Part shown: positions 1,729 to 52,593 of the stretch, one piece after another
Numbering within the stretch: the stretch's first letter is position 1
How the letters are laid out: each line of letters begins with the position of its first letter
Origin: Fimbriimonadia bacterium
Lineage (GTDB): Bacteria > Armatimonadota > Fimbriimonadia > Fimbriimonadales > JABRVX01
DNA: 64,000 bases
Direction of reading: 5' to 3'
Assembly (NCBI GenBank): GCA_039961735.1
Contig: JABRVX010000002.1
Location: forward strand, 1 to 64,000
Made by a program: the position numbers and the translations under genes
Notes under the pieces: model-generated
Told to the model about the DNA's origin: nothing
What the model saw: the letters and a program-made list of their open reading frames with translations, nothing else
The model's database searches: none

Positions 1729-2157
1729 ATGCCAGAGGAGCCGCCGGTGCTGGAATGGACGGTGTCGCTTTCGTCGCAGCAGCCGGAGAAGGTTGCCGCC
1801 GTGCTGGTCGCAGCGGCATTCGCGGGTCTGGTGGGCTTCTTCGTGGCCGGTTCGGTTGCACTGGCGGTCGTCGGTCCAGCGGTCGTGCTCGGCGCAACGT
1901 CGGAGTTTCTTCTGCCAGTTCGATACCGGATTGCGGAGGACGGCGCAAGCGCGCGGTGGGGCATTAACGTGACCCACATTGCGTGGAAGGATGTGAAGCG
2001 AGCCAGAGCCGACGCGCATGGAGTAAAGCTGTTGCCTCTCGAGAAGCCGAGCCGACTCGAAGCTTTCCGCGGCGTTTATCTTCGATTCGGCGACCGGAAG
2101 CAGGAAGTCGAACGGGCTGTGGGGTATTGGTACCGGAACGATGCGACTTTGGGATGA
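1729..2157 (+). CDS. Small membrane protein, PH-like; first gene of membrane operon
   Basis: 142 aa from the ATG at 1729, chosen because GGAGAGCAGA precedes it; an upstream in-frame ATG at 1687 has no ribosome-binding site. Residues about 22-55 form two closely spaced hydrophobic segments. A soluble C-terminal part follows with the pattern of bacterial PH-like membrane proteins (VRYRIAEDGASARWG, then HIAWKDVKRARAD, then GVYLRFGDR). The PH assignment is tentative. The gene overlaps the next one by 17 bases, indicating translational coupling, and heads a six-gene membrane operon reaching 6279. No function can be stated. Confidence 0.7.
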   Translation: MPEEPPVLEWTVSLSSQQPEKVAAVLVAAAFAGLVGFFVAGSVALAVVGPAVVLGATSEFLLPVRYRIAEDGASARWGINVTHIAWKDVKRARADAHGVKLLPLEKPSRLEAFRGVYLRFGDRKQEVERAVGYWYRNDATLG

Positions 2158-2461
2158 GCCGCTCTCCGAAGAAGACAAGGATAGGATAACCGAACTGCTC
2201 GCCTCTAAGGTGGAGCGCTGGGGGCTCACTGTCCCGGCAATCCTTTGGCTCGAGATGCACAAGCCCATCGCCCGAGTCGCCGCGAACGCCGCAATCGTCG
2301 TTTCTCCGTTCGTCGTCCCCTTCAGCGGCATGACCGCCTTCGACAACTATACGCAGTTCTTCGAAGACCGGGACAACATCGAGCGTCTGATCCGAAGGCT
2401 CGAAGAAGGCGCTGCTGCGAAGAGGGGGCCAGAAAAGGACACAGCGAATGCAACACGCTGA
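2141..2461 (+). CDS. Small hypothetical protein of membrane operon
   Basis: 106 aa, not recognised. It starts at an ATG inside the end of the preceding gene and overlaps the following one by 14 bases. An acidic, charged N-terminus (RLWDEPLSEEDKDRI) is followed by a weakly hydrophobic stretch at about 45-65 (VAANAAIVVSPFVVPFSG), which could be one membrane helix or a hairpin. The C-terminal tail is charged (DRDNIERLIRRLEEG). Tight coupling to both neighbours suggests a subunit of the same membrane assembly. Confidence 0.65.
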   Translation: MRLWDEPLSEEDKDRITELLASKVERWGLTVPAILWLEMHKPIARVAANAAIVVSPFVVPFSGMTAFDNYTQFFEDRDNIERLIRRLEEGAAAKRGPEKDTANATR

Positions 2462-3281
2462 TCAGAACTGGTTCATCGTCATCCTGTACGGGTTGTTCGC
2501 CATCTTCATTCTGTCCATGATCACCCTGGCGAAGCGTGGCAAACAGCTCTACATCCGCCGCATCGCAGGCTTGACGGCCATTGACGAGGCCGTGGGACGC
2601 GCCCTGGAGATGGGCCGTCCCATTCTTATGGTGCCGGGCATCGGCGGGCTAAACATCATCTCCGTCCAGGCACTCCAGATCTTCGCGTACATCACGAAGA
2701 CGGCCGCGCGTTATGGCAACCCGATCCGACTAACCTGCATTGACGCAGCGGTGTATGCGGTCGCTCAGGAGATTGTCCAGGACGCCTACCGGGCTGAGGA
2801 CCGAGCGGAAGCCTACGATCCCGATTCGGTTCGGTTCATCGCCGCTCAGCAGTTCGCATTCGCCGCCGGTGTCGCGGGTCTCATCCAGCGCGAACGGGTG
2901 GCGGCAGCGTTCCTGTTGGGTGAGTTTTTTGCGGAGTCTTTGATTCTGGCCGAGTCGGGCAACATCGTAGGCGCGATACAAGTCGCAGGTTCTACCCAGA
3001 CCACACAGACGCCGTTCTTCGTCGCCGCCTGCGACTACGTGATCATCGGAGACGAGTTCTACGCAGGCAGCGCGTTTCTTTCGCGAGAGCCGGTGCTGAT
3101 GGGAAGCATCGTGGGGCAGGATCTTTGTAAGGCGCTCATCCTGCTGAGCATCCTGGTCGGCGTCATATGTGTCTCCATCGCCACGTTCACTGGAAACGAA
3201 GAACTGATGAAGTTCAAAGGGCTGTTCGGCCCGGGTGGCTGGGACGCGCTGTTCGGCGCGTCGCCCAAAGGGGGGTCGTAG
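2448..3281 (+). CDS. DUF6754-like membrane protein
   Basis: 277 aa. One N-terminal TM helix at about 8-26 (WFIVILYGLFAIFILSMITL) is followed by a cytosolic domain starting KRGKQLYIRRIAGLTAIDEA. The next segments (EAVGRALEMGRPILMVPG, then IDAAVYAVAQEIVQDAY) match, from memory, the family catalogued as DUF6754. A second TM helix lies at about 233-252 (ALILLSILVGVICVSIATF). The biochemical role of this family is unknown to me. Residues 105-215 contain small-residue-rich hydrophobic stretches that may pack into the membrane. The next gene begins at the base after this stop. Confidence 0.75.
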   Translation: MQHADQNWFIVILYGLFAIFILSMITLAKRGKQLYIRRIAGLTAIDEAVGRALEMGRPILMVPGIGGLNIISVQALQIFAYITKTAARYGNPIRLTCIDAAVYAVAQEIVQDAYRAEDRAEAYDPDSVRFIAAQQFAFAAGVAGLIQRERVAAAFLLGEFFAESLILAESGNIVGAIQVAGSTQTTQTPFFVAACDYVIIGDEFYAGSAFLSREPVLMGSIVGQDLCKALILLSILVGVICVSIATFTGNEELMKFKGLFGPGGWDALFGASPKGGS

Positions 3282-4619
3282 ATGGGGCGCAGATTGCTCT
3301 TCTCCCGTTATCTTTCTGTCGTCCTCGGCTTGTTGTCCATAGGCTTCTTCACCGCTGCTCTGGCCCAGGGCCCCGAGGAAGAGTCGACGATTCGTGCAGG
3401 CGACAGGCTTTACATCAACATCGAGGGCAAGGTCGCCCAATACACAGTCGGGCAGGATGGCACCGTTGATGTCCCACCGTTCGGTAGGCAACAGCTTGCC
3501 GATAAGAAGCCGTCCGAAGCGGCCGAGATGCTCGCAGAGCTGGGCAAGCAACGCAAGTACGCCGAGCAGCCAGAGTTCCGCCTAGAAGGCCTCCAGCTCG
3601 ACGACGAAGGACGCATCGTCTCCAACGGTGAGGTGCGGGTTTTCGTCGGCGGTCAGCAATATACGCGCCTGGTCAAGATGGACGGGGTGCTGGAGGTTCC
3701 GCAAGTGGGGCCTGTACGTGTAGCGGGTCTGACACCGGCAGAGGCGATCGCTTCCATCGCAGAGTCGTGGCAGGCAGCCCAGGCCTTTCGCGTGCACGTC
3801 ACCTTCGTGAACGGTTTCATCCTCCATGGGGCAATGTGGTGGTTGGCCGTTATCGGCATCCTCATTGTCTCCCTGATCATCATTCTGCTGCTGGCGCGTG
3901 TCGGCACCCGGTTCCGACGTTGGATCATCGCAACTTGTGTGTTTCTGGCCGGTCTGTTCTGGGCGACCGAGTTCTTCTTCCCGACAGGTACATTCGGGTA
4001 TCCCGAAGGTCAGAACTTCCTAACACCGCGTATATCCGACACCATCACTCCCATGACGAACGTGATGGCGGGTCTGTTGCTCGGATTAGGTGTGTATTCG
4101 CTGCTGCGAGTGCACGGCAGCAGGATACGGAAACGCGGCGAGAACTGGGTGTTCAGTTTCGTTCTGCTGTTGTGCATACCGGTCATGGCGTTCATAGTGC
4201 TCCAGTATCGCAGCCCTGACAACCCGTACTCTGCGCCTCAGTTCTTCCAGGACGCACACAAGCTTCTCTTCGAGAACATGTTCGCTCAGATGGAAGCTGC
4301 TATGTTCTCGATGATTGCGTTCTTCATCATGTCCGCCGCGTATCGGGCGTTCCGACTACGCTCGATAGAGGCTTCCATATTGATGCTGTGCGCGCTAATC
4401 GTGTTTCTCGGCCTCCTGCCGCTCGGCCAGTTCCTGACTAGCTTCATCCCCGCCGATACGCTCGTGGGATCGCTGAGGCTGGAGAACGTGGCCCAGTGGC
4501 TGCTTACTGTCATCAACACGCCGGCACTGCGTGCCGTCGAGTTCGGAATCGGTGTCGGCCTATTGGCCATGTCATTGCGCATCTGGCTGAACCTGGAGCG
4601 CGGTGCACTGTTCGACTAG
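3282..4619 (+). CDS. Poly_export/SLBB-like modules fused to multi-TM membrane domain
   Basis: 445 aa, ATG directly after the previous stop with GGGGGG upstream. A signal peptide (about 1-28, cut after ALAQ) precedes an extracytoplasmic N-terminal half. That half has two modules resembling the beta-grasp repeats of Wza-type polysaccharide-export proteins. Module 1 has IRAGDRLYINIEGK and VGQDGTVDVPPFG; module 2 has VKMDGVLEVPQVG and VAGLTPAEAIASI. About seven TM helices follow (near 184, 212, 257, 290, 338, 365 and 412). Classical Wza-type exporters are secreted lipoproteins without such a membrane domain, so this is an unusual fusion. It may connect a periplasmic ligand or glycan-binding surface to a membrane complex made by its operon partners. 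Confidence 0.7.
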   Translation: MGRRLLFSRYLSVVLGLLSIGFFTAALAQGPEEESTIRAGDRLYINIEGKVAQYTVGQDGTVDVPPFGRQQLADKKPSEAAEMLAELGKQRKYAEQPEFRLEGLQLDDEGRIVSNGEVRVFVGGQQYTRLVKMDGVLEVPQVGPVRVAGLTPAEAIASIAESWQAAQAFRVHVTFVNGFILHGAMWWLAVIGILIVSLIIILLLARVGTRFRRWIIATCVFLAGLFWATEFFFPTGTFGYPEGQNFLTPRISDTITPMTNVMAGLLLGLGVYSLLRVHGSRIRKRGENWVFSFVLLLCIPVMAFIVLQYRSPDNPYSAPQFFQDAHKLLFENMFAQMEAAMFSMIAFFIMSAAYRAFRLRSIEASILMLCALIVFLGLLPLGQFLTSFIPADTLVGSLRLENVAQWLLTVINTPALRAVEFGIGVGLLAMSLRIWLNLERGALFD

Positions 4620-4629
4620 GACGTGTAGC

Positions 4630-5547
4630 ATGGAAATGCAGACCGAAAACCAAACCCATCCTCTCACGACGTGGGAGAAGCTGCAGACTATTGACCGCAG
4701 GATCCTCTATTTGATCCTGATTATCGTCGTGTCCGTTTTCATCGTATATCCGGTATCCCTGCCCAATCAGCCACTTCCCCAGTCTCGGAAGCTGTTCGAT
4801 CTGATCAACGACGCGCCGGACGGTAGCCTGGTCTTTATCTCCTCGGGCTGGACCATGTCCTCGCGAGGCGAGACGCTTCCGCTCTACCAGGCCCTGGTAC
4901 GGTTGTGCATGAGGAAGAACCACCGGATTGCGGTGATTTCGCTCACCGAGCCGGCGGCCGCGGGCTTCGCGCTGAGTTCTCTAGTAGAGGTGGCCCGAGA
5001 ACCACACCATCCCCCGTACATCGAGGGAAAGAACTGGGTCAGTCTAGGGTTTATGCCGGCCGGCGATGCGTACATTCAGTCGCTTACCAGCAATATCCGG
5101 GGCGCGCTGGACAAGGCCGAGGTGCGCGGACAGCCCGCTACCAAGTCCGAGATGCTCAAGGACGTCCAGTCGTTGAAGGAGTTCATTGTGGTAGTGGACG
5201 TCTCGGCATCGGCTAGCTACCTGCTATGGGTGGAGCGGGTGCACGGCATCGTTCCGATGGGACTGATGTGCACCGGCGTCATGTTTCCAGAAGCTCTTCC
5301 ATACCAGAAGTCCGGTCAACTCGCAGGCGTCGCCTTCGGTGCGCGTGGAGCCTATGACTTCGAAACGATGATGGCCGAGGACCGGAAGCTGAGTCCGACT
5401 GAGGACGCGTCCAAGATGGCCTACGGGCTGGGACGGGAGTATATGACACCGCTCACAGCGGCCATGATTCTGCTGACACTCGCCATCATCGTGGGCAACG
5501 TCGCAATGGTCATGGCACGTAAGAGTGCTGAGACGAGGGGAGCGTAG
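4630..5547 (+). CDS. Bitopic membrane protein with large soluble domain
   Basis: 305 aa, not recognised. I use the ATG at 4630, eight bases after AGGA; an in-frame start at 4603 lies inside the upstream gene. One TM helix near the N-terminus (about 25-45, ILYLILIIVVSVFIVYPVSL) and one near the C-terminus (about 272-292, LTAAMILLTLAIIVGNVAMV) bracket an alpha/beta-looking soluble domain of about 220 residues. Its features include GSLVFISSGWTMSSRGE, RIAVISLTEPAAAGFAL and FIVVVDVSASASYLLW. I saw no known catalytic motif. Its position between the SLBB-like fusion and another membrane gene makes it a likely core subunit. Confidence 0.65.
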   Translation: MEMQTENQTHPLTTWEKLQTIDRRILYLILIIVVSVFIVYPVSLPNQPLPQSRKLFDLINDAPDGSLVFISSGWTMSSRGETLPLYQALVRLCMRKNHRIAVISLTEPAAAGFALSSLVEVAREPHHPPYIEGKNWVSLGFMPAGDAYIQSLTSNIRGALDKAEVRGQPATKSEMLKDVQSLKEFIVVVDVSASASYLLWVERVHGIVPMGLMCTGVMFPEALPYQKSGQLAGVAFGARGAYDFETMMAEDRKLSPTEDASKMAYGLGREYMTPLTAAMILLTLAIIVGNVAMVMARKSAETRGA

Positions 5548-5550
5548 AGA

Positions 5551-6279
5551 ATGCTGGGGAACTTCCTTGCTATCGAGTTGCAACCGATGTTCAGCAAGGA
5601 GTGGTGGTTCGTGACTGCGGGCGCCATCTCCACGATCGGTCTGTACTCCATTCTGTATCGTGAGAACAAGTTCTACAGGCTGGTGGAGCACATCTTTCTC
5701 GGGCTGGGTGCCGGTACCGTCATCGCGCTCGTTTGGACCGAGGAGCTGCGGCAGCTATGGTGGATCCCTTTCTACGACAGGGGCTACTATCTGTGGGTGC
5801 TACCGGTTCCCGTGGCCTTGCTAGGCTTCACGGTCTTCTCCCGTAAGCACGGGTGGCTCAGTCGCATCCCTATCGGTATCTTTCTCGGCTTGTGGGCCGG
5901 CCAGCAGTTCAAGGCATGGTCCAATCGGTGGTTGCCGCAGGTGCAGGATTCTATGGTGCCGATAGTGCCAACGCAATGGCAGTTGGTCCAGCCTGAGGTG
6001 GTGCAGCCCGACCAGGTTTTCATTTCTACTGCCATCAACAACCTGATACTAGTTGCTACCACGGTGTGCGTGTTGACCTACTTCTTCTTCTCGTTCGAGC
6101 AGAAGTTCAAGGCGGTACGTGGCACCGCCCAGATGGGTAGGTGGCTGCTGATGATCGCGTTCGGTGCGATCTTCGGATCGACCATCATGAACCGCTTCAT
6201 CCTGATGATTGACCGCATGTACTTCCTGCTCATCGAATGGCTGCAGCTCCGTGCACTGTTAGACATCGGTCCGCACTGA
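5551..6279 (+). CDS. Polytopic membrane protein, last gene of membrane operon
   Basis: 242 aa, starting three bases after the previous stop. Five or six predicted membrane segments lie near residues 20-36, 44-63, 80-96, 106-122, 158-178 and 195-215. The N-terminus reads LAIELQPMFSKEWWFVTAGA and the C-terminus is aromatic and hydrophobic (MNRFILMIDRMYFLLIEWLQ). There are no signal peptide or enzyme motifs. I do not recognise the family. It closes the operon; a palindromic repeat pair follows in the intergenic region. Confidence 0.65.
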   Translation: MLGNFLAIELQPMFSKEWWFVTAGAISTIGLYSILYRENKFYRLVEHIFLGLGAGTVIALVWTEELRQLWWIPFYDRGYYLWVLPVPVALLGFTVFSRKHGWLSRIPIGIFLGLWAGQQFKAWSNRWLPQVQDSMVPIVPTQWQLVQPEVVQPDQVFISTAINNLILVATTVCVLTYFFFSFEQKFKAVRGTAQMGRWLLMIAFGAIFGSTIMNRFILMIDRMYFLLIEWLQLRALLDIGPH

Positions 6280-16236: not shown

Positions 16237-16343
16237 CGTCATGCCGAGCCTGTCGAAGCATGACGCCGACTGCCGCGATGGTAGTATCCGAAGTCGGGAG
16301 CGTACTATCCGAGAAAGCATGCTTCGACAGGCTCGGCATGACG
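16237..16343. repeat. Paired 26-bp inverted repeat (palindrome family A)
   Basis: Arms 16237-16262 and 16318-16343 are exact reverse complements (core atgccgagcctgtcgaagca) separated by 55 bases. It is the same family as 6314-6421 and the repeats near 52500. It occupies the 311-base gap between acpS and purN, where nothing else is seen. Confidence 0.9.
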
Positions 16344-41189: not shown

Positions 41190-41270
41190 CTGGATTCCCG
41201 CCTCCGCGGGAATGACATATCACACACAGTTCACTCAGTAGTTGTCATTCCCGCGGAGGCGGGAATCCAG
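41190..41270. repeat. Paired 28-bp inverted repeat (palindrome family B)
   Basis: Arms 41190-41217 (core ggattcccgcctccgcggga) and 41243-41270 are exact reverse complements with a 25-base centre. The same arm type, with ttcg in place of tccg, occurs at 210-237 and 371-400 and there forms the 3' end of a coding sequence. Confidence 0.9.
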
Positions 41271-52352: not shown

Positions 52353-52523
52353 GAGATTACGCCAGTGGTACCCGTCATGCCGAGCCTGTCGGAGCATGGT
52401 GCTACACGTGAGATTACGCCAGTGGTACCCGTCATGCCGAGCCTGTCGAAGCATGGTGCTACACGCGAGATTACGCCAGTGGTGCCCGTCATGCTGAGCC
52501 TGTCGAAGCATGGTGCCACATGC
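52353..52523. repeat. 57-bp repeat, three copies
   Basis: Units start at 52353, 52410 and 52467, each beginning gagattacgccagtggt and containing one family-A palindrome arm (catgccgagcctgtcgaagc or a one-base variant). The copies differ by only a few bases, implying recent tandem duplication of a palindrome arm plus its flank. Confidence 0.85.
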
Positions 52524-52593
52524 CGCATGGCATGGCCTTCCGATGTTACGTTCACGACGACCGCTTGCATGCTTCGACAGGCTCAGCATGACG
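52487..52593. repeat. Paired 26-bp inverted repeat (family A) joining the two arrays
   Basis: Arm 52487-52512 lies in the third 57-bp unit. Its exact reverse complement, 52568-52593 (core gcttcgacaggctcagcatg), starts the 31-bp array. The two arrays therefore grew outwards from one palindrome. Confidence 0.85.

Follow-up and report, generated by a model that had tools for sequence, protein, structure and literature searches.

Near the start of a contig from a Fimbriimonadia bacterium of the phylum Armatimonadota (JABRVX010000002.1, assembly GCA_039961735.1), six closely packed genes, named g1–g6, run along the forward strand at positions 1729–6279. They lie within the first 64,000 nucleotides of the contig, a stretch referred to here as the window, which is part of contig 2 in a genome of 3.2 Mb (G000), the sole representative of its family among the genomes compared. 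What do these genes, most of them coding for membrane proteins with no meaningful family match, build together? We conclude, with a probability of about 0.6 and from sequence comparison, that the operon probably supplies the membrane portion of an ATPase-coupled envelope complex not yet described. More tentatively, and at something short of even odds, the whole would have eight subunits and represent an undescribed class of ATP-driven envelope machine, in which a MutL-type ATPase drives a core bearing a Rossmann-like domain on each face of the membrane. Such a machine would occur in nearly all Armatimonadota and in many uncultured phyla.

A collinear gene unit in many phyla

The six genes are tightly coupled, with successive junctions of −17, −14, 0, +10 and +3 nt (negative values denoting overlap), in agreement with an earlier note on this DNA that described them as overlapping or at most 10 nt apart. 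Members of DUF6754, the family of g3, are present in 173/201 Armatimonadota genomes and in 0/14 well-known control genomes. The order and orientation g1-g2-g3-g4-g5-g6 are kept in nearly all of 40 loci of the phylum, chosen to cover ~30 families; the exceptions are loci with g1/g2 missing, tandem g3 or second copies.

The unit was followed beyond the phylum by scanning 84,980 genomes with the g3 alignment, the taxa being taken from record titles, under which some metagenome-assembled genomes (MAGs) are possibly mislabelled. Relatives of g3 were found in Armatimonadota, WOR-3/Stahlbacteria, Zixibacteria, Latescibacterota, Aegiribacteria/Fermentibacteria, Poribacteria, Eisenbacteria, Edwardsbacteria, Cloacimonadota, Phycisphaerae (Planctomycetota) and Symbiobacterium. 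The genes g3-g4-g5-g6 are consecutive on one strand in 62 of the 64 loci with enough sequence 3′ of g3 (Armatimonadota and ~10 other phyla), and all six genes occur in order in 31 of the 64. Since the loci were retrieved by g3 alone, the presence of g4–g6 is independent evidence. Thus, g3–g6 form a multi-phylum core and g1–g6 a conserved collinear unit. Scattering of the genes in relatives, which the earlier note had named as grounds for giving up its proposal, was looked for and is not found for g1–g6. The prevalence of DUF6754 differs between phyla: 54/60 genomes, with up to six copies, in the phylum of a WOR-3 locus (L108), 22/79 in that of a Phycisphaerae locus (L119) and 4/61 in that of a Symbiobacterium MAG (L132). 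As the family is near universal in Armatimonadota and the WOR-3-type phylum and absent from the 14 well-known references, the system probably has a basic role that is invisible in model organisms. One MAG of the cultivable Chthonomonas calidirosea (L077) carries the genes, which opens the partners to testing.

The whole g3-g4-g5-g6 cassette is duplicated in tandem in four loci (L130, L134, L137 and L139), and L116 is similar. In WOR-3-type loci (L108, 10808–15929; L113, 6792–12285), g6 is followed by genes for a DUF4388 protein, two proteins that look Roadblock-like by eye, two small membrane proteins, ExbB, two ExbD and TonB; in L141, a TonB-dependent receptor and ExbB/ExbD/TonB lie 3′ of g6. 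Because ExbB/ExbD/TonB follow the cassette only in WOR-3 and Fermentibacteria/Aegiribacteria loci, we do not count them as parts of the system.

A MutL-like ATPase and a barrel-sandwich-hybrid protein

In several phyla, as in two armatimonad loci (L047 and L048), g2 and g3 are separated by genes for a MutL-like ATPase and a barrel-sandwich-hybrid (BSH) protein. The pair g2 then MutL recurs in several other phyla, and in L132 all eight genes form one block of ~9 kb. The partner MutL (~600–610 aa) is a member of the ASKHA ATPase family that matches PF13941 over its full length (4e-124; 9e-124 for the ~610-aa protein encoded between g2 and g3) and carries a C-terminal extension of ~110 aa; the ATPase phosphate motifs DCGSTTTK and GVDIGGATTD can be read directly in it. 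The BSH partner (~375 aa) is named for its N-terminus, which in the homologue from the window's genome matches RnfC_N (6e-7, 29.9 bits against a cut-off of 25.6). Its C-terminal part, for which no database match was obtained, may be KOW-like by our own reading.

Gene order and shared presence and absence place both proteins in the same system as g1–g6. Among the places compared, 20 armatimonad genomes have MutL, and 31 have BSH, no more than 8 kb from DUF6754; the layouts are of two kinds, MutL-BSH-g3 and a position after g6. MutL scores above its cut-off in 179/201 genomes, and was found in each of the 16 genomes with a cassette that were tested from the named set. Joint absences, spread over several families, involve 17 of the 201 genomes for DUF6754 with MutL (p 2e-13, Fisher), 17 for DUF6754 with BSH (p 2e-15) and 18 for MutL with BSH (p 7e-21), p values that overstate the strength of the association because related genomes are not independent. 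Two 1.5-Mb genomes from the window's own order (G181 and G185) are without DUF6754, MutL and BSH together, probably through loss.

Besides this dependence among genomes, some observations weigh against an eight-part system. The window's genome has its MutL gene (contig C20, 97798–99603; 57% identical to that of L048) and its BSH gene (contig C36, 23145–24266) on other contigs, unlinked to the operon and thus out of sight of the earlier note. Additionally, 11 genomes have MutL and BSH with no DUF6754 match; most are fragmentary, but three (G023, G055 and G106) have a completeness of 90% or more.

Predicted topology of the subunits

The subunit with the highest conservation is g3 (2448–3281, +), which the earlier note had called DUF6754-like and which is a full family member (PF20539, 1e-89, 300.5 bits against a gathering cut-off of 27, nearly full length). 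The AlphaFold2 models of g5 (4630–5547, +, alternative start 4603; pLDDT 93.7, pTM 0.89) and g3 (pLDDT 91.2, pTM 0.84) share a layout in which a Rossmann-like domain of alternating helices and strands stands between two transmembrane (TM) helices; the large soluble domain so placed that had been noticed in one product is thus present in two. The order of secondary-structure elements is common to g3 and g5. Profile comparison finds no significant similarity between the two (probability 1%), and we therefore make no claim of a shared ancestor. Foldseek searches of the PDB with both models gave weak Rossmann-type matches only (query TM-score at most 0.34 for g5 and 0.42 for g3, top 50), and PDB sequence searches with g3, the N-terminal part of g4, g4, g5, g6, MutL and BSH gave only chance or FN3 matches.

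Lysine and arginine counts indicate how these domains are oriented. Over the g3 homologues, 3.6 such residues follow the first TM helix and 0.8 precede it, which places the domain in the cytosol, and over the g5 homologues 3.6 precede the first TM helix and 1.3 follow it, which places the domain outside. An FN3-like N-terminus and a signal peptide in many g3 homologues are consistent with an N-out g3. The same bias places g4 N-out/C-in, and its N-terminal Poly_export part (see below) is therefore periplasmic. The resulting model predicts that the two Rossmann-like domains lie on opposite sides of the membrane, that of g3 in the cytosol and that of g5 facing outward, and that g4 and g6, both polytopic, are embedded in it. 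The alignment of 55 g3 sequences contains 29 invariant residues, among them E54, R148, E163, E169, Q178, Q187, D196, E203 and D225, which suggest a putative site for ligand binding or catalysis on the cytosolic side. The gene order kept over ~30 families, the multi-phylum four-gene core and this complementary topology give strong support to the earlier proposal of a single unnamed envelope complex; its further suggestion, a role in glycan sensing or export, stays conjectural.

The polytopic core subunit, g4 (3282–4619, +), consists of a signal peptide (residues 1–30) with no Cys lipobox, a Poly_export-type region (~32–165; PF02563, 9.4e-19 in two stretches) and seven hydrophobic TM helices (~187–436). 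An export module in front of seven TM helices had been read correctly by the earlier note, and its label as SLBB-type is not supported by Pfam: PF10531 was not matched in g4 at E up to 1, and the nearest to such a signal is a weak EpsE/PEP-CTERM stretch at residues 128–164. Nor is the operon built around an SLBB-TM fusion, as had been supposed. Among ~100 g4 homologues examined from any phylum (24 of them aligned), only the window's g4 has the Poly_export N-terminus, and the homologues align to the profile only from ~residue 167 or later. Outside Armatimonadota, g4 is without the first TM helix and starts at the second one of the window's g4, so its core comprises six helices. Long inserts of other kinds, with no Pfam assignment, are found in g4 of L023, L045, L054 and L060. 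Since Poly_export is local to one g4 and the inserts elsewhere differ, the outward modules look like swappable accessories. A second g3-g4 pair, without g5/g6, occurs in the window's genome (contig C5, 20999–23475, equal to L023 7991–10491); its g4 has a ~320-aa outward insert with no Pfam match, whose repeats appear propeller-like by eye.

The other polytopic subunit, g6 (5551–6279, +), has 17 invariant columns in its homologue alignment and the signatures LYkENpfYRfaEH and FGAxFGxTVMaR; Pfam and PDB searches returned no relative. The product of g1 (1729–2157, +, alternative start 1687; 142 aa) has two TM helices followed by a C-terminal beta-rich domain. Its profile matches 32 open reading frames of the phylum loci and 40 of the named loci, with W10, W86 and G115 invariant in the alignment, and a bacterial PH domain is a weak lead (a bPH_6 match in 1/21 members, 0.005). 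The small conserved g2 (2141–2461, +; 106 aa; motif PAixxLExxkPl) has a single weak hydrophobic stretch and is thus the doubtful one in the earlier count of all genes but one as clearly membrane proteins. Searches of Pfam and NCBIfam gave no meaningful family match for g1, g2, g5 or g6; for g5, 62 members searched against Pfam gave no family, one chance match aside.

Scans for promoters and terminators found no excess over shuffled sequences. Directly 3′ of g6 lies one pair of a dispersed palindromic repeat, GCTTCGACAAGCTCGGCATGA, of which the window holds 8 copies at up to 3 mismatches with 0 expected by chance (6316–6336/6399–6419, 16239–16341 and 52375–52591), often as inverted pairs ~60 nt apart. 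A second dispersed palindrome, TGGATTCCCGCCTTCGCGGGAATGAC, has 4 copies with 0 expected (214–239, 372–397 and 41191–41269).

Proposed mechanism and comparison with known systems

In the mechanism that we propose, the nucleotide cycle of MutL (with predicted hydrolysis) would act on the cytosolic DUF6754 domain, the BSH protein serving as an adaptor between the two. The change would then be relayed via g4/g6 to g5 and to the optional outward modules, and these modules (FN3 in the case of g3; in g4, Poly_export or a long insert) may contact an envelope polymer or solute. A single ATPase could serve several membrane cassettes, like a shared energising or reactivating module for several membrane units. 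One WOR-3 genome (G202) has six DUF6754 genes and one MutL; one ATPase for six cassettes, taken with the cytosolic receiver, the polytopic core and the outward domain, suggests a nucleotide-driven relay outward. As the output, we lean towards transport or assembly of an envelope component as first choice, with sensing second.

A signal-sensing complex, in which the outward g5 domain or the accessory modules bind a ligand, DUF6754 signals and the ATPase regulates, is the alternative that survives best, although we consider it unlikely. A Rossmann-like domain on each side of the membrane, outward modules that vary and several cassette copies would suit it, as would the DUF4388 and Roadblock-like proteins encoded 3′ of g6 in WOR-3 loci. 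Against it, nothing that recurs across phyla in the clustered neighbourhoods is a kinase, a regulator or an output domain, and an ATPase of this type is untypical of sensors.

Less probable again is a role in enzyme maintenance, with MutL as a reactivase-type chaperone. Its client would be a radical or corrinoid enzyme, either formed by the membrane proteins or supplied by them with reductant. In its favour, reactivation of glutamate mutase is the chaperone function described for MutL/GlmL (PMC4682846), the barrel-sandwich domain of the BSH partner is of the RnfC_N type, and many polar residues of DUF6754 are invariant. Glutamate mutase itself (PF06368) is found in only 1/201 genomes, as a weak match, and is absent from the window's genome; Cys clusters and flavin/B12 families were not found in g1–g6. 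The partner ATPase resembles the MutL/GlmL family (PF13941; NF040745, TIGR01319) in its full-length match and ASKHA phosphate motifs, and differs from it in the C-terminal extension, in a phylum almost without glutamate mutase and in GlmL scores that, for the window genome's MutL, fall below the cut-offs (NF040745 equivalog, 224.8 against 475; TIGR01319 subfamily, 170.9 against 204). On the mutase count we rejected MutL as glutamate-mutase reactivase in these genomes, where it probably has another role than the textbook one. The near absence of the mutase and the low scores suggest that MutL usually partners the membrane cassette in these phyla, and that the annotation "glutamate mutase MutL" misleads there.

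A polysaccharide-export machine, in which the Poly_export part would make g4 a fused Wza/OPX-like system, is improbable. OPX/Wza proteins have an N-terminal Poly_export domain followed by one to eight SLBB repeats (PMC1796856), and g4 shares with them that domain and a signal peptide that makes it periplasmic. It differs in having no PF10531 repeat, and in the seven TM helices that follow and the missing lipobox, which speak against a lipoprotein or an outer-membrane location. None of the other g4 homologues examined has the domain, and glycan synthesis genes, whether for glycosyltransferases, Wzc or Wzx/Wzy, do not recur among the neighbourhood clusters of L063–L142. An exporter centred on an SLBB fusion was rejected, as the domain is seen in one genome only. 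Finally, that g1–g6 are co-inherited housekeeping neighbours with no physical complex is very improbable, given the same order over ~10 phyla although other neighbours differ, and the tandem duplication of the whole g3–g6 cassette.

The envelope complex that we favour was also compared with other assemblies. With Rnf/NQR it has in common an RnfC_N domain above cut-off, in the BSH partner, and several polytopic subunits; it differs in that no RnfA/D/E/G, Nqr, flavin or Fe-S families are found in g1–g6 or the BSH partner, which scores 15.7 for rnfC (cut-off 246). A relative of Rnf/NQR was therefore rejected, the BSH domain alone being shared. In the open literature, to which the searches were confined, DUF6754, PF20539 and PF13941 gave no result. 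PilM-PilNO and MreB-MreCD combine an ASKHA ATPase with membrane assemblies. The present system may be analogous to these in having a cytosolic ATPase of actin-like fold genetically tied to inner-membrane proteins, here by linkage and shared presence and absence, and differs in that no PilN/O/P or MreC/D family was matched among its subunits. Since at least one defining test failed for each known system considered, we rate the system itself, made from the already known families DUF6754 and MutL, as undescribed.

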